Shown: piece by piece, positions 7,850-16,480 of the stretch
Position numbering within the stretch: the stretch's first letter is position 1
Layout: the number at the start of each line of letters is the position of its first letter
DNA from: Flavobacteriales bacterium
Lineage (GTDB): Bacteria; Bacteroidota; Bacteroidia; Flavobacteriales; BACL11
DNA length: 33,539 nucleotides
Direction: 5' to 3'
NCBI GenBank assembly: GCA_012960805.1
Contig: DUAO01000024.1
Span: forward strand, 1 to 33,539
Program-made: the position numbers and the translations under genes
The notes under the pieces: model-generated
Database searches by the model: none
Told to the model about the DNA's origin: nothing
What the model saw: only the letters and a program-made list of their open reading frames with translations

Positions 7850-7899
7850 ATTGTATTTGCTGTATTTGTAAAATAAATTTATATTTTTACCACAAGTTT

Positions 7900-8090
7900 A
7901 GTACACCAAATAGGTGTAAAAGGGAATGAGGTGTAAATCCTCAACTTTACCAGAAGCTGTAAAGTCCGTAATATTTTGAATACTGCACGCGCCACTGTTA
8001 AAAAATGGGAAGGCCAAATTCAAAAGGACTAAGTCAGAAGACCTGCTAAATAAAACAAACCGAATCGTTTCTGGATAAAACGACAGGAGA
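7900..8090 (+). promoter_or_regulatory. Cobalamin riboswitch (aptamer plus expression platform)
   Basis: The leader of the BtuB-like gene carries the conserved blocks of an adenosylcobalamin-type aptamer in the right order: AGGTGtaaaAGGGAA (from 7912), GAGGTGtAAATCCTC (~7928), CTGTAAA (7957), GCCACTG (7991), GGGAAGGCC (8007) and the B12 box AAGTCAGAAGACCTGC (8030-8045). A 6-bp hairpin (TCGTTT 8065-8070, AAACGA 8078-8083) follows and abuts an AGGAGA sequence just before the ATG at 8091, so binding of cobalamin probably hides the ribosome entry site. A weak promoter (TTTG 7856-7859, TATATTTT 7880-7887) is possible upstream. Known riboswitches of this class switch their genes off when the cofactor is plentiful. 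Confidence 0.92.
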
Positions 8091-9965
8091 ATGAAACAGA
8101 TTTTAGCACACATAATAATCCTAATTAGCTTTGCATATACCCTGCAAGGACAAACCGCTATGGATACCATTAATCTTCCAGAAGTAAAGCTAGAACAAAG
8201 CCGATTGCGTACCCATTCAATTGCTACACAAATGGAAATATTTACACCTGTCGAGCTAGGAAATTTTCCTTCACAAAACCTAGCAGATTTCTTATCCCTC
8301 AATTCTGCTTTATACTTCAGGCAATATGGGGCTTTAGCTACTCCATCTTTCAGAGGAACCTCCAGTTCGCACACCTTAGTACTATGGAATGGTATTCCGC
8401 TTAATTCGGTAGCTAATGGGCTAATGGATTTTTCCATCTTGCCTGTTAATATAGGGCATGAATTAGCGGTAGTTCATGGTGGTGATGGCTCTGTATTTGG
8501 TTCTGGTGCTATAGGAGGGAGTGTGCACTTTAATGCTATAAGTAATTTTAAGCCTAAAAAACAGATACAGTTTACTTCAGAAATAGGAAGTTTTGGCCTT
8601 AGGAGTAATACCTTTAGCTTGAAGCGTACTGAGGGTAAATTATCTATTCAGGCCTCTTTATTTTCCCTTAGCGATAATAATTCCTTTGAGTTTGTAAATA
8701 CTACTCAAATAGGGCATCCTTCAGTTATGAATGAATACGGAAAGATTGAAAGCAAACACCAGCAATTGGATTTGGGGTATCGATACGATAATTACAATCA
8801 ATTTGCCATTAATTACTGGGCTGAAGATAATAACAGGGAAGTGCCTCAAAATATGACTGTTCTTTTTTCAGATGCCAAACAGTATGATGTAAGCAAGCGT
8901 TTGTTATTTTCTTCCAAACATAGATTTGATCACAGTAGTTTGCAATTAAAACAAGCTTATCTAAAAGAAGATTTCCGCTATACTGAACTGCTGTGGGGTA
9001 TTGATAGCCATTACCTAACTGAAAGCCATATTACGGATGCAGACTTTAAATATTTTACAGGAAATTATTTATTTAATTTAGGAAGTGCTTATACCAACAA
9101 ATCAGTTACCAACACTAATTATTTGGGCACAAAACAGGATGAAAAACAATTAGCTCTCTTTTCTGCTATTCAGTATAAGTCAGAATTTTTTGTAGTCAAT
9201 ACAATATTAAGGAAAGAGTGGCAATCGGCTTTTGAAGTGCCTTACATTCCTACTTTGGGCTTTTCTGCCCAATTAAGCAAGCATCTTCAGTTCAGATTAA
9301 AATACAATAGAAATTTTCGCTCCCCTAGCTTTAACGATAGGTTTTGGGTAGATGCATGGTCTAATGGTAATCCTGATTTGAAACCAGAAAATGCTTGGAA
9401 TAAAGAGTTTGGGTTTGATGTAAATACTTCTTATTTTACCTGTAGTGCTACCGCTTATACTTTGACTATATCGGATATGATTTTATGGCAAGAAATGGAC
9501 AATGGTAATTGGATGCCAGATAATATAAAGCAAGTGTGGAGCAGGGGGGTAGAGACAAAATTGAAATTGACAATAAAAGATTTTAGCATAGTTGGGAATT
9601 ATGGGTTTACTAAATCAACTAATGAATTATCGAGTGACAGCCTAGACAACACAGCAGGGAAGCAATTGCGATATGTTCCACTTCACAAAGGAAACGTGAT
9701 GTTTATTATTGCTAAAGATGATTTTCAATTCAGTATAAACCAAAGCTATACAGGGGAAGTGATAACTACTCACGGAATTCAGGAAAATGAAACTTTACCT
9801 GCTTTTGTGTTGACAGATATTGGGCTTAGATGGAAATCAACTCACTCTTCTTTTTCCCTTCAAGGAAAAGTAAAAAACCTAATGGATAAAAGTTATCAGA
9901 CTTATCAGAACTATCCTAACCCAGGCAGAGAATTGCAATTAACAATAACTTATAGTATCAATTAA
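8091..9965 (+). CDS. btuB: TonB-dependent outer-membrane receptor, vitamin B12 (BtuB-like)
   Basis: The 624-aa protein has a signal peptide (~1-21, ending LQGQ), a plug domain (~40-150, with 'FPSQNLADFLSLNSALYF', 'PSFRGTSSSHTLVLWNGIPL' and 'VVHGGDGSVFGSGAIGGSV') and a 22-strand-type barrel (~150-624), which includes the typical 'RNFRSPSFNDRFW' and 'GNPDLKPENAWNKEFG' segments. This is the BtuB/FepA receptor fold that takes up scarce ligands through the outer membrane using TonB energy. The ligand assignment rests mainly on the cobalamin riboswitch directly upstream. At 624 aa it is close to E. coli BtuB and lacks the large N-terminal extension of SusC proteins. The ATG follows an AGGAGA ribosome binding site, unusual for this organism and probably part of the switch. 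Confidence 0.9.
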   Translation: MKQILAHIIILISFAYTLQGQTAMDTINLPEVKLEQSRLRTHSIATQMEIFTPVELGNFPSQNLADFLSLNSALYFRQYGALATPSFRGTSSSHTLVLWNGIPLNSVANGLMDFSILPVNIGHELAVVHGGDGSVFGSGAIGGSVHFNAISNFKPKKQIQFTSEIGSFGLRSNTFSLKRTEGKLSIQASLFSLSDNNSFEFVNTTQIGHPSVMNEYGKIESKHQQLDLGYRYDNYNQFAINYWAEDNNREVPQNMTVLFSDAKQYDVSKRLLFSSKHRFDHSSLQLKQAYLKEDFRYTELLWGIDSHYLTESHITDADFKYFTGNYLFNLGSAYTNKSVTNTNYLGTKQDEKQLALFSAIQYKSEFFVVNTILRKEWQSAFEVPYIPTLGFSAQLSKHLQFRLKYNRNFRSPSFNDRFWVDAWSNGNPDLKPENAWNKEFGFDVNTSYFTCSATAYTLTISDMILWQEMDNGNWMPDNIKQVWSRGVETKLKLTIKDFSIVGNYGFTKSTNELSSDSLDNTAGKQLRYVPLHKGNVMFIIAKDDFQFSINQSYTGEVITTHGIQENETLPAFVLTDIGLRWKSTHSSFSLQGKVKNLMDKSYQTYQNYPNPGRELQLTITYSIN

Positions 9966-10075: not shown

Positions 10076-11137
10076 ATGAAATTACTGAATTATTTATTAG
10101 TTGTTTTTCTCTTTGTTTCAGCTTGTAAAAAGGATACAAAAGAGGAAACACCTGTATTGCCTGCCGATTATGGTAGTGGCATGTATATAGTAACTGAAAA
10201 TGGCATTAGTTTTTATGATGGTGAGGTAGTTAAAAATCAAATTTATCAAAAGGTAAATGGACGCTCAATATTTAATGGAAAGAAAATAAAATTCAGAGGC
10301 ACTAAAGCGTATATTGTTACTGATAATCAAATTCTAACAGCTAACGTTAAAACGTTTGAAAATAAAGAAGAAATCAAGGGTTTTACTAATGCAGTTGATT
10401 TTGATTTTGTTAGTAATAATAGATTATTTGTGGTTGACCAAGCAGATGCTAAAATCAAGGTTGTTGACTTGCTTACTTTGGATATTACCTCTGATATTGA
10501 AACAGGCAATAATACACAGCCAGTTTTTATTGTTTCTAAATGGTGGCGCTCTATTGTTTTAAATGGTGGATTAGTTGCTGATTTTTTAAAAGACTCAACT
10601 ATTGTGGCTATTGATTACAGCGATAATTTAGTTCCTTTAGCTGATTTTAATGGCAGCGTCTATGTTGGAGACAACCCTAATTCAGCTGTATGGATTAATG
10701 ATTTAAAAATATTGTGCAAAGGTATTTATGATCCAAATAATTTATTAAATAATACTGAAGCTATTCTGGTAAGAGTTCATCCATGGAATATGGAAGTGGT
10801 ATGGGTTCAAACTCTTAGTAATATTTATAATGCTCAAAATCTTATTTCAGAGTCTTCTGATGCTAAGTATTTTTTTACAGCAGCTGATGGGGTTTATCAA
10901 ATGAATAATGATGGCTCTGGTATTTCTAAAAAAATAAATTTTACTTCTGATTTTATAGATATAAAAGTAGAAAGTTATGACTTGACAGATACTACATCTG
11001 CTTATGCTAATATGTTGTATGTAAATGATGCGATAAATAATCCAAATACTATTTATAAATACAATATTGCTACAAGTGTATTCTCTGACACCATAGTAGT
11101 TGATGGTAATGTAAGGGATATTGCTTTCTATGAATGA
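10076..11137 (+). CDS. Surface lipoprotein resembling BtuG/DUF5074 beta-propellers
   Basis: The 353-aa product has a lipoprotein signal peptide with the lipid-accepting Cys at residue 17 (LFVSAC, then KKD). The body is made of repeated beta segments such as 'GMYIVTENGISFYDGE', 'GTKAYIVTDN', 'NNRLFVVDQADAKIKVVDLLT' and 'NTIYKYNIAT', a propeller layout. The combination of an ENGISFYDGEV opening, an N-G stretch and YIVTD / KIKVVD blades resembles BtuG and DUF5074 proteins, cobalamin-binding surface lipoproteins that cap BtuB in Bacteroides. The position directly after a riboswitch-controlled BtuB gene agrees with that. Identification as BtuG is inference from pattern and context; a generic YncE-like propeller is the alternative. 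It overlaps the next gene by 4 nt. Confidence 0.6.
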   Translation: MKLLNYLLVVFLFVSACKKDTKEETPVLPADYGSGMYIVTENGISFYDGEVVKNQIYQKVNGRSIFNGKKIKFRGTKAYIVTDNQILTANVKTFENKEEIKGFTNAVDFDFVSNNRLFVVDQADAKIKVVDLLTLDITSDIETGNNTQPVFIVSKWWRSIVLNGGLVADFLKDSTIVAIDYSDNLVPLADFNGSVYVGDNPNSAVWINDLKILCKGIYDPNNLLNNTEAILVRVHPWNMEVVWVQTLSNIYNAQNLISESSDAKYFFTAADGVYQMNNDGSGISKKINFTSDFIDIKVESYDLTDTTSAYANMLYVNDAINNPNTIYKYNIATSVFSDTIVVDGNVRDIAFYE

Positions 11138-12642: not shown

Positions 12643-13254
12643 TTATATTGTTTTAATATATTTTATACTTAATTCATGATTTTTCTTAAAAGTATCTACA
12701 ATGGAATCCGCTTTACTTTTTTGAGCTGCAAATATAAGCTTACAATCTATTTGAAAGTCAGTAATTATCACTTCTAAATCAAATTCTTTTACCAATTGCA
12801 TCACAGCATTCATTTGAGGATATTTAAAACTTACCTCATGGTGTTCTTTTATGGTTTTTGTAAGGATTTCCGCATCAGATATTGTAATAGCTGCTGCTGT
12901 TTTATAAGAACGGATTAAACCAGGAACACCTAGCTTTACTCCTCCAAAATAACGAACTACAATAATTAGGATGTTGGTGAGGTCATTCGACTGTATTTGT
13001 CCTAAAATAGGTTTTCCTGCAGTAGAAGAGGGCTCTCCATCATCATTAGCTCTCCAAGATGATTTGTCTGCATGCAGAACATAAGCATAGCAATGGTGCC
13101 TAGCAGAATGTTCTAGTTTTTTTACTTCTTCCAATCTCTCTTTTACTTCCTGTTCAGAGTATACAGGGTAGGAGTATGCTATAAATTTACTACCTTTCTC
13201 TTTGTAAATTCCTGTTGTATGGTTTTTAACCTCTTTGTACGTATCATCAAACAT
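12643..13254 (-). CDS. YigZ/IMPACT family protein (UPF0029)
   Basis: The proposed start is the ATG at 13254, giving 203 aa (MFDDTYKEV...). A longer frame reaches 13305 but adds 17 hydrophobic residues not typical of the family, and the ATG at 13254 shares one base with the upstream stop (TAATG). The N-terminal UPF0029 domain is clear: 'HSARHHCYAYVL', 'DDGEPSSTAGKPILGQI' and 'VVRYFGGVKLGVPGLIRSYKTAA'. A C-terminal DUF1949-like part (~135-203) follows. Members include E. coli YigZ and eukaryotic IMPACT, a regulator of Gcn2; the bacterial role is unsettled, perhaps linked to translation. It is the third gene of the ribD set. Confidence 0.9.
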   Translation of the reverse strand: MFDDTYKEVKNHTTGIYKEKGSKFIAYSYPVYSEQEVKERLEEVKKLEHSARHHCYAYVLHADKSSWRANDDGEPSSTAGKPILGQIQSNDLTNILIIVVRYFGGVKLGVPGLIRSYKTAAAITISDAEILTKTIKEHHEVSFKYPQMNAVMQLVKEFDLEVIITDFQIDCKLIFAAQKSKADSIVDTFKKNHELSIKYIKTI

Positions 13255-14126
13255 TAAAGTGAGAAGATATAAATTGCACAAATAGAAAGTAAAATTCCAA
13301 TCCAATTATTTCTACTGAGTTTCTCCCTAAAAATGAGCATTCCAATAAAACTTGAACTTATAATAACGCCCATGCTTACTAGTGGAAAAACTATTGAGCT
13401 ATTTAGGTTGGGATCACTCAGGGCTCTTAAAAAGAATAGCAGAGAGAAGAAGTTGGGAATACCAAAAATAACTCCCCAGAAGATGCTTTTTAATTTCAAA
13501 GGCTTTCTTCCTTTAAATGATTTCCCTAATAGAATTAGAATTCCACTAATACTAGCAATAATAAATAATATCATAAAGAACAAATAGCTTTCTTTTTTTA
13601 ACACTTCCTTAAAACTTTGAGCAAAATCATTAAAGATTGCATCTGAGATTCCTTGACCTACAAAAACTAAAATAATTAACCATAAATATTTCTTATCAAA
13701 ACTTAGTTTTCCTGCTTTGGTAGAGGATAAATAAATGCCTGCAAGTGCTAAAAAAAATGCAATTCCTTTTAATTCATTAAAAGTGTTATCTTCAGGATAT
13801 AAAATAAGTGCTGTACACACAGGAATAATTAATGACATTTTATTTGCTACTGTAGTAACCGCTATTCCTACTTTTTGTGTTCCGAATGCGTAAAAGTTAA
13901 ATACAATTATAAATAATGTTCCTATAATCATTGCATGATATAGCCATTCAGAATTTAATACATGATTTAATGAAAAATCTTGCTCTAAAAAGAAATAAGA
14001 ACATCCTGCTGCGGTTAAGTAATTTACAATTAAAGCTTGCAAATTATCTACTTTGTATTTTTCGAACATTTTAAATACAATAATTAAAACATTGAATAGA
14101 AGTATGGTATAGATGATATTAGTCAT
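13254..14126 (-). CDS. EamA/DMT-family transporter
   Basis: The 290-aa protein is almost wholly made of about ten hydrophobic helices in two halves, the arrangement of drug/metabolite transporters with two EamA repeats. Typical segments are 'AFGTQKVGIAVTTVANKMSLIIPV' near the end of the first repeat and 'SSIVFPLVSMGVIISSSFIGMLIFREKLSRNNWIGILL' near the end of the second (shown split; the FREKLS-N-IGI pattern is a family hallmark). Family members export amino acids, nucleosides or other metabolites; the substrate here is unknown. Only 7 nt separate it from the ribD-ASCH gene upstream, and it overlaps the next gene by one base, so it belongs to that operon. A link to flavin or its precursors would be speculation. 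Confidence 0.85.
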   Translation of the reverse strand: MTNIIYTILLFNVLIIVFKMFEKYKVDNLQALIVNYLTAAGCSYFFLEQDFSLNHVLNSEWLYHAMIIGTLFIIVFNFYAFGTQKVGIAVTTVANKMSLIIPVCTALILYPEDNTFNELKGIAFFLALAGIYLSSTKAGKLSFDKKYLWLIILVFVGQGISDAIFNDFAQSFKEVLKKESYLFFMILFIIASISGILILLGKSFKGRKPLKLKSIFWGVIFGIPNFFSLLFFLRALSDPNLNSSIVFPLVSMGVIISSSFIGMLIFREKLSRNNWIGILLSICAIYIFSL

Positions 14127-14133
14127 AGTGATT

Positions 14134-15612
14134 TTAAGACCAAATTATTTTAAAATATTCACATACAATTATCATGTTTTCGCTTGGTTTTTTTCCATGT
14201 TTTCGCATCTCTCTACTGAAAAAATCCCAATGAACTTTCTTCCAATAAGTAAGAGATTTATCTCCTTCTCCTTCAGTTCTTGCAAATTCAGGTGTAATCT
14301 GATTAAAAGAAACTTGCTGGGTATTGGTAGTTTCTGCAATTGCTTTGGCTTTCCCGTTCCAATTAGTTACAATAAATAAATCCCCTTTTTTTGGTAGGCT
14401 TCTATTATATTTTTTGTAGGACCATAATGAACCTGCAGTAGCTTGTTTTATTCCTTTTAAAACTAATTCTGAACATTCATCAGCATCCTTTTTGTTATCG
14501 CAAAAGAAGAATGATTCTGGAACACCCTTCTTCTCATATATCTGGTTTTTAGCTGTAAATTCTTCCCACATTCTTTCTGATGAAGAAAGAAACTTATAAT
14601 AAGTGAGTTTATCTCCTCCAACTTCTGTTTCTTCCATAGTTTTCCCTGTAATAATTGGAGCCTTTAAACCCTCTATTAGCTCTTTATTGGTGGTAAATAT
14701 TCTAGCTTCATCCCATAGTTTTACATCAATAAAGGATTGTAAAGTGTTGCTTCCTCCCTCAATGATTATAGATTGAATGTTTTGTTTATGTAATTCTTGT
14801 AAAATATTTTTAATCAAATTATTAAAGTTAATTTTAATAAAGTAATTATTACTAATTTCTTGTGTTTTTAGGGTATTAAAAATAATGGTTTTTGCATCAC
14901 TATCAAATAAATTTAAATCAGTAGAAAGTTTCAAATCCTTATCGATCACAATTCGGATCGGATTTTCCCCCTGCACTTCTCTTACTGTAAGGTAAGGGTT
15001 ATCTTTTTCAGTAGTAATTCTACCTACCAAAATAGCATCTTCTTCCGCTCTCCATTTATGTACTAATTTCTTGGATTTGCTAGAAGTCATCCAAAAGGGC
15101 TCTTTCTGATTATTTGGAGCAATAAAGCCATCTTTGCTTTCTGCCCATTTTAAGATAACATAAGGCCTATTTTTCTCATGAAAAGTAAAGAATATTTTAT
15201 TAAGGCCTCTACTTTCTTTTTCCATAATTCCAATTTTTACATCAATTCCAGCATTCCTCATCTTTTTAATTCCTGCACCAGAAACTTCAGAAAAAGAATC
15301 GATACACCCAATTACTACTTTTGGTACTTTATGTTCTATTATAAGGTTAGAGCAGGGAGGAGTTTTACCAAAATGAGCACAAGGTTCCAAATTCACATAA
15401 AGTGTAGATTTATTGAGTAAATTTTTATCGGTTACACTATTGATTGCATTTACTTCTGCATGTGCTTCTCCATATTTTTGATGAAACCCTTCTCCAATAA
15501 TTTCACCATCATAAACAATTACACAACCTACCATAGGGTTGGGAGATACTAATCCTATTCCTTTTTGACCTAGTGTCAAACATCTTTTCATAAAAAACTC
15601 CTGATTTTGCAT
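14134..15612 (-). CDS. ribD: RibD bifunctional deaminase/reductase fused to a C-terminal ASCH domain
   Basis: Residues 1-342 are a complete riboflavin-synthesis RibD. The deaminase has the zinc site H51-A-E and C78/C87 in PCAHFGKTPPC. The reductase has 'KWAESKDGFIA' (155-164), 'KWRAEEDAILVGRITTEKDNP' and EGGS (285-288). It catalyses the second and third steps from GTP to riboflavin. RibD proteins usually end here, at about 345-360 aa. This frame continues, without stop or shift, into residues 348-492, which look like a whole ASCH-domain protein: MWEEF start, 'FCDNKKDADEC', LKGIKQATAG (GxKxxT motif), 'GDLFIVTNWNGKAKAI' and 'EGEGDKSLTYWKKVHWDFF'. The junction falls at nt 14571, where an ATG codon begins the ASCH part, so two once-separate genes may have joined. 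ASCH domains include nucleoside amidohydrolases and predicted RNA-binding proteins. Confidence 0.9.
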   Translation of the reverse strand: MQNQEFFMKRCLTLGQKGIGLVSPNPMVGCVIVYDGEIIGEGFHQKYGEAHAEVNAINSVTDKNLLNKSTLYVNLEPCAHFGKTPPCSNLIIEHKVPKVVIGCIDSFSEVSGAGIKKMRNAGIDVKIGIMEKESRGLNKIFFTFHEKNRPYVILKWAESKDGFIAPNNQKEPFWMTSSKSKKLVHKWRAEEDAILVGRITTEKDNPYLTVREVQGENPIRIVIDKDLKLSTDLNLFDSDAKTIIFNTLKTQEISNNYFIKINFNNLIKNILQELHKQNIQSIIIEGGSNTLQSFIDVKLWDEARIFTTNKELIEGLKAPIITGKTMEETEVGGDKLTYYKFLSSSERMWEEFTAKNQIYEKKGVPESFFFCDNKKDADECSELVLKGIKQATAGSLWSYKKYNRSLPKKGDLFIVTNWNGKAKAIAETTNTQQVSFNQITPEFARTEGEGDKSLTYWKKVHWDFFSREMRKHGKKPSENMIIVCEYFKIIWS

Positions 15613-15646: not shown

Positions 15647-16480
15647 ATGGAAAAAGTCAGCAATATTATCCCCTATTTTAAAGCAGAGCTCTTAGGCATT
15701 ACTCAGGAAAAAGAAGTTATTTCGTGGGCATATATTGTTATACAGCATTTGCTTGGTTATAATCGTTCGGATTGCATCATTCATGGGGATAAGGAAATAA
15801 CCATTGAAATATCAGATGAAATCAAGCAAATTGTTAGGGATTTAAAAACACAAAAACCATTACAGTACATACTAGGAGAAACAGAGTTTTACGGCATGAA
15901 ATTTAAAGTAAATGAACATACTTTAATACCAAGGCCAGAAACTGAAGAATTAGTGGGGTGGGTATTGAAAGAAAAGTTTAATTCTGTTTTGGATATAGGA
16001 ACAGGAAGCGGCTGTATTTCTATTGCTTTGGCTAAACATAGTAAGGCTACTATTTCTGCAATTGATATATCTAAAATGGCTTTAAAAGTAGCTAAAGAAA
16101 ATGCGGCTATAAATGAAGTAAAAATTGATTTTATTCAGAAAGATGTCTTGCAAGTTCATGGCTTACAAAAAGTTGATGTCATTGTAAGTAACCCTCCTTA
16201 TGTTTTAGAATCTGAAAAGCAGAAAATGAAAGCTAATGTATTGCAATATGAGCCACATTTAGCGCTTTTTACTCCTGAAAAAACCCCTGTATTATTTTAT
16301 AAAAAAATTGGAAATTTAGCAGCAAAATCCTTAAATTATGGCGGTAAATTATATTTTGAAATTAATGAGCAATATGGAGTTGAAATTTTAGAAATGCTAA
16401 GCAAGATTGGCTTTGTTGATATAGCGTTAAAAAAAGATATAAATGACAAGGACAGAATGATAAAAGCCATTTGGAAATAG
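15647..16480 (+). CDS. prmC: Peptide chain release factor N5-glutamine methyltransferase
   Basis: PrmC methylates the glutamine of the GGQ motif in release factors RF1 and RF2, which raises termination efficiency. The 277-aa protein has an N-terminal helical domain (1-~75), then 'PLQYILGETEFYG' and 'TLIPRPETEELV' (93-103), the SAM-binding motif VLDIGTGSGCISIAL (114-128), the acidic D140 (AIDIS) and the catalytic NPPY (182-185). All family hallmarks are present and the length is normal. It diverges from ribD across 34 bp with its own -7 element, so it does not share an operon with riboflavin genes. Confidence 0.95.
   Translation: MEKVSNIIPYFKAELLGITQEKEVISWAYIVIQHLLGYNRSDCIIHGDKEITIEISDEIKQIVRDLKTQKPLQYILGETEFYGMKFKVNEHTLIPRPETEELVGWVLKEKFNSVLDIGTGSGCISIALAKHSKATISAIDISKMALKVAKENAAINEVKIDFIQKDVLQVHGLQKVDVIVSNPPYVLESEKQKMKANVLQYEPHLALFTPEKTPVLFYKKIGNLAAKSLNYGGKLYFEINEQYGVEILEMLSKIGFVDIALKKDINDKDRMIKAIWK

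Follow-up and report, generated by a model that had tools for sequence, protein, structure and literature searches.

The ribD gene in the window, the whole 33,539-nucleotide stretch of DNA analysed here, is fused to an ASCH gene: one gene encodes one predicted polypeptide, in which a complete EF3133-like ASCH domain directly follows RibD. On the minus strand, from 15612 to 14134, a single frame of 492 codons plus a stop encodes RibD (residues 1–342) and then ASCH (residues 346–492), while the plus strand of the same interval is crowded with stops. The original prediction had given these coordinates correctly. Matches of the frame to PF04266 and to the RibD profile are far above chance level. 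In the window genome (G000), ribD and ASCH each occur once, both times in this fused gene. The fused form occurs in three related uncultured Flavobacteriales species, where it is the sole copy of RibD. The architecture is real and, within the literature searched, undescribed. No paper in the open-access literature searched mentions both RibD and ASCH, in line with the earlier impression that such a fusion was new. The features of the locus are collected in Table 1.

Table 1. Features of the fused gene and its neighbours, in window coordinates
Feature	Position	Strand	Basis or remark
EamA-family transporter gene	13254..14126	-	next after ribD in unfused relatives too
ribD–ASCH fused gene	14134..15612	-	492 codons + stop; also full length in G008, in part in G039
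Complete EF3133-like ASCH domain, residues 346–492	14137..14577	-	PF04266; 1t62 and 3s9x by sequence and fold; pLDDT 85–98
E447, at the place of YqfB Glu74	14272..14274	-	alignment
GIKQAT motif, residues 387–392 (K389, T392 at YqfB Lys21, Thr24 places)	14437..14454	-	alignment
Junction, residues 338–345: last residues of RibD and 3-residue link	14578..14601	-	unfused RibD tails vs free ASCH starts
RibD reductase part, residues 146–342	14587..15177	-	PF01872 at 150–307; TIGR00326 to 310
RibD deaminase part, residues 1–145	15178..15612	-	PF00383 at 1–103; H51, E53, C78, C87
prmC	15647..16480	+	divergent neighbour of ribD, conserved order

The RibD part matched TIGR00326 over residues 8–310 (E 1.9e-88, 297 bits vs a cut-off of 156), and both the Pfam deaminase (PF00383) and RibD_C (PF01872) domains were found in the fused protein. 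The zinc and catalytic residues His51, Glu53, Cys78 and Cys87 are present and invariant across 12 RibDs. Because RibD of unfused relatives stops at 341–345 residues, the part is full length, which bears out the proposal of a full RibD at residues 1–342. The protein shares with bifunctional RibD/RibG enzymes (TIGR00326; PDB 2b3z, 2hxv, 2g6v) both domains, the catalytic residues and a single genome copy, and differs from them in its extra C-terminal ASCH domain. The window genome also encodes RibH and a 403-aa RibBA, in which the GTP cyclohydrolase II half was identified by visual inspection. Since the sole ribD stands in a genome with these genes, its RibD part probably performs the normal two steps. 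RibBA and RibH also leave no obvious gap for ASCH, and with the 403-aa RibBA present we rejected the idea that ASCH fills a missing riboflavin step.

At the junction, where unfused RibDs end in tails such as GDKLDIIKND, the fused protein has GDKL and then TYYKFLSSSERMWEEF. ASCH proteins usually begin like the final stretch of TYYKFLSSSERMWEEF (NSVEKLW and similar in free-standing relatives). The RibD tail is thus joined to a usual ASCH start, and both parts are therefore complete, with almost no linker. The genome is metagenome-derived and lies in 127 contigs, as would suit an assembly or sequencing error that deleted a stop between two genes. However, Flavobacteriales MAG UWMA-0274 (G008), from a different genus, has the same architecture, with 75% identity over the full length. 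MAG NIOZ-UU109 (G039), from the same genus as the window genome, has ribD split over two contig ends, and in its 3′ fragment the last part of RibD continues in frame into ASCH. The same junction in three genomes differing at many silent sites, two of them with no start codon at that place, leaves such an error a negligible probability, and we rejected it. The stop codon between the parts that was initially considered for relatives was not seen, as both G008 and G039 carry the in-frame junction. Where the window gene has Met348, taken earlier as an internal ASCH start, the codon in G008 is ATT and that in G039 ATA; neither genome has an ATG, GTG or TTG among the codons examined around the junction. 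ASCH in those species is therefore made only within the fusion, and its separate translation from Met348 is ruled out there. The earlier description of the ASCH part thus holds for the complete domain, while the Met start is not general. Three genomes and a confident ASCH fold (below) back the in-frame fusion of two complete parts.

Purifying selection acts on the RibD and ASCH parts alike. The ASCH parts are 72–86% identical between species, and bootstrapped dN/dS values for the three pairs are 0.25 (0.12–0.48), 0.26 (0.14–0.43) and 0.19 (0.10–0.30), with all upper bounds below 0.5. For RibD, dN/dS between G000 and G008 is 0.12.

The ASCH part matched PF04266 over residues 378–489 (E 4.6e-20, 72.7 bits vs a cut-off of 21.2). 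Of 63 ASCH sequences, more than 85% agree at 26 positions, and the fused protein has the common residue at every one of them; the predicted GxKxxT motif was confirmed as G387-I-K-Q-A-T392. An AlphaFold model of the fused protein, built with 26 aligned sequences, gave block pLDDT values of 85–98 for the ASCH part; the RibD half was poor because few RibD rows were usable. The modelled ASCH domain superimposes on Lactobacillus crispatus 3s9x (Z 22.8, rmsd 2.0, 153 aligned), on EF3133 (1t62; Z 20.8, rmsd 1.5, 147 aligned) and on E. coli YqfB with ac4C (9kyh; Z 12.4, rmsd 1.9, 102 aligned), and 1t62 and 3s9x are matched at the sequence level too. Structure prediction, proposed at the outset as a check on the fold, thus returned an ASCH fold with confidence. 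The match to EF3133-like ASCH proteins (former Pfam DUF984) is full length in both sequence and fold, but those proteins are free-standing and the domain here is fused to RibD. To our knowledge, EF3133-like ASCH proteins have no established function.

Structural likeness to YqfB, the E. coli N4-acetylcytidine amidohydrolase (PDB 9kyf, 9kyh), makes hydrolysis a candidate activity. YqfB hydrolyses N4-acylcytidines by means of Lys21, Thr24 and Glu74, and its Arg26, 100% conserved in the group, forms the oxyanion hole (PMC6972931). In an alignment with a YqfB reference sequence, Lys389, Thr392 and Glu447 fall at the places of Lys21, Thr24 and Glu74, and Gly394 falls at that of Arg26. Because of this replacement we do not assign the fused ASCH as YqfB-type; the oxyanion arginine is missing in the solved EF3133 sequence too. 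The fused domain is also about 45 residues longer than YqfB. Pyrimidine hydrolysis related to the YqfB reaction is plausible.

An alternative is an RNA-binding ASCH domain, targeting its own mRNA or a tRNA for instance, that couples RibD to regulation or RNA turnover. ASCH resembles PUA, and ZmASCH binds nucleic acids and has weak ribonuclease activity. Besides a GxKxxxxR motif, the ZmASCH-type ribonuclease is defined by Tyr47, Lys53, Ser128 and RNA cleavage. ASCH proteins have been described with a GxKxxxxR motif (PMC5615036), which the fused domain does not keep: it reads GIKQATAG, with glycine in place of the final arginine. RNA binding was not observed for YqfB-type enzymes (PMC9599836), and no structured RNA was found near ribD. 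On balance, RNA binding appears unlikely, and nothing in this analysis favoured the RNA-sensing role raised earlier.

The gene order prmC (divergent), ribD, eamA, yigZ is common to most relatives read. Unfused genomes have eamA directly after ribD, and it is at this ribD/eamA junction that fused genomes carry ASCH. The other 49 family genomes searched, several of them incomplete, have no ASCH domain anywhere; where read, their ribD stops near codon 342 and the gene order is unchanged. Free-standing ASCH relatives, at up to 64% identity, are found in other Bacteroidota, in Acidobacteriota and in Gammaproteobacteria. None of their loci has ribD adjoining the ASCH gene, so the suggestion that relatives might carry the two parts as adjacent genes found no example. 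In one of them, locus L044, a ribD lies about 1.7 kb from the free-standing ASCH gene and on the other strand. No further RibD–ASCH fusions were seen in samples of 396 order, 395 phylum and 395 class genomes, nor, beyond the species of G008 and G039, in 44 ASCH loci from GTDB contigs, a scan that reaches close relatives only. Rarer cases may exist beyond the sampled genomes. Carriage of the fusion by phages or plasmids was rejected: viral contigs hold no close relative of either part, the phage-record ASCH matches are all below 60% identity, the plasmid matches listed are to RibD only and none spans 80% of the fusion, and a RibD profile search of viral sequences found nothing beyond partial matches within the deaminase region. 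A link to defence systems was also rejected, with no PADLOC match.

The three fused ASCH domains group as a single clade (99/99), in which G008 and G039 are sisters across genera. In the RibD tree, G000 groups with the unfused G047 (94/98) and G008 is placed elsewhere. Between G008 and G039, ASCH has a dS of 0.25 (0.16–0.37), compared with 0.90 for YigZ, 1.05 for EamA, 1.13 for PrmC and 1.43 for LigA. Comparison of G039 with its unfused near-twin G049 outlines a tract: the flanks are mostly 90–99% identical, ribD codons 291–313 are 97% identical and codons 314–335 only 74%, and near-identity resumes at the start of eamA. Codons 314–335 of G039 are nearest to those of G008 (79%). From these sequence comparisons, a single origin of the fusion and a recent horizontal movement of the ribD 3′ end together with ASCH are well supported. 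The simplest reading is one fusion event followed by spread through homologous recombination: a flavobacterial stand-alone ASCH gene would have come once to the 3′ end of ribD, before eamA, and a short segment (the ribD end plus ASCH) would have passed between species by way of shared ribD and eamA sequence. The unfused RibDs of G044 and G045 (ribD 3′ ends at loci L104 and L103) end in the tail FKILYV, and the DNA for this tail is the same as that at the end of the G008 ASCH; the tail may be the scar of a lost ASCH, or a shared site. As a scar, it would suit a fused form that is old and was lost many times with no horizontal spread. The G008–G039 ASCH dS, far under that of the flanking genes, and the tract pattern of G039 vs G049 speak against this history, which we regard as distinctly improbable.

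For the function of the fusion, we tentatively favour a real fusion with one origin and later spread, in which ASCH is an accessory clean-up or repair hydrolase near RibD; as a whole, this explanation has a little less than an even chance. The fused form spans three genomes in two genera. The ASCH pocket, tethered to RibD, would bind a small pyrimidine or nucleotide and hydrolyse it as a clean-up or repair activity beside RibD. The compound would most likely be a by-product, stray or N-acylated, that arises from the reactive 5-aminopyrimidine intermediates. RibD works on reactive aminopyrimidines. The clean-up role has a precedent in COG3236, a domain that occurs fused to riboflavin enzymes and disposes of such intermediates (PMC4921024, PMC5312566). 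The COG3236 (NADAR) N-glycosidase fusions, such as RibA-COG3236 of Vibrio, likewise place an extra small-molecule domain on a riboflavin enzyme, but ASCH is an unrelated domain. NADAR (PF08719) had no match in any of the three fused genomes (G000, G008, G039), nor in the Pfam scan of the fused protein. Rhizobiales have a formamidase of riboflavin synthesis that acts immediately ahead of RibD (BrbF/ArfB; PMC9478397). Its amide hydrolysis on a pyrimidine right before RibD resembles the chemistry proposed for ASCH, although BrbF/ArfB are of an unrelated family and free-standing, and the fused genome has the usual RibBA. Counting against the clean-up explanation are the glycine at the place of the YqfB oxyanion Arg26 and the lack of ASCH in most of the family. 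Moreover, fusion alone is a weak functional clue because ASCH is joined to unrelated domains elsewhere.

Those other fusions bring in a rival that is nearly as likely as the clean-up reading. ASCH may have its own modified nucleoside or nucleotide substrate, unrelated to flavins, having landed behind ribD, been joined in frame and spread as an accessory gene on the ribD 3′ end; the fusion would be tolerated because ASCH folds by itself. Such a tethered passenger fits the joining of ASCH to GNAT, VF530 and GNAT-ABC proteins in other members of the phylum, the lack of ribD beside free-standing ASCH relatives, the patchy presence and recent movement of ASCH, and the work of characterised ASCH enzymes on modified cytidines. 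It fits less well with in-frame joining kept over a large divergence (G000–G008 dS near 0.9), when a separate gene would be equally serviceable. A source of substrate in the cell's own tRNA ac4C is also unlikely, as neither the TmcA nor the TmcAL family was found in the genome, which is 97% complete, and clean-up of own tRNA ac4C by ASCH is therefore not favoured.

The clean-up reading also has a narrower form, in which RibD–ASCH would be a dedicated flavin enzyme with three activities and an EF3133-like ASCH domain, the latter deacylating, deformylating or otherwise hydrolysing damaged 5-aminopyrimidine intermediates. We consider this form less likely than not. If true, the EF3133-like ASCH group would gain a substrate, and riboflavin synthesis would have a second type of clean-up domain built in. 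More generally, a partner as well understood as RibD offers a direct clue to the function of EF3133-like ASCH proteins, and fusion clues have yielded functions before, as for COG3236 (PMC4921024). The weight of the finding is limited because the fusion has one origin and few species. The near-twins G039 and G049, with and without ASCH, provide a clean natural comparison.

Several further observations were made in the family, the phylum and the window. Within the family, a NADAR-domain gene was found only once (G009:C24:4247-4648, L136), in an unfused genome of the same genus as the fused G008. In another Bacteroidota genome, a GNAT acetyltransferase–ASCH fusion of 323 aa (L119:707-1675, minus strand) brings acetyl transfer and a possible deacylase domain into one protein. 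A Vicingaceae genome encodes a fusion of a VF530 DNA-binding domain with ASCH (L051:5749-6456, plus strand; 236 aa), and a further member of the phylum joins ASCH to a GNAT-ABC protein. Within the window, a Cobalamin riboswitch (RF00174, 87.6 bits) at 7882-8064 on the plus strand immediately precedes a TonB-receptor-like ORF (8091-9965), which is followed by a lipoprotein-like ORF (10076-11137), an arrangement resembling a B12 uptake unit.
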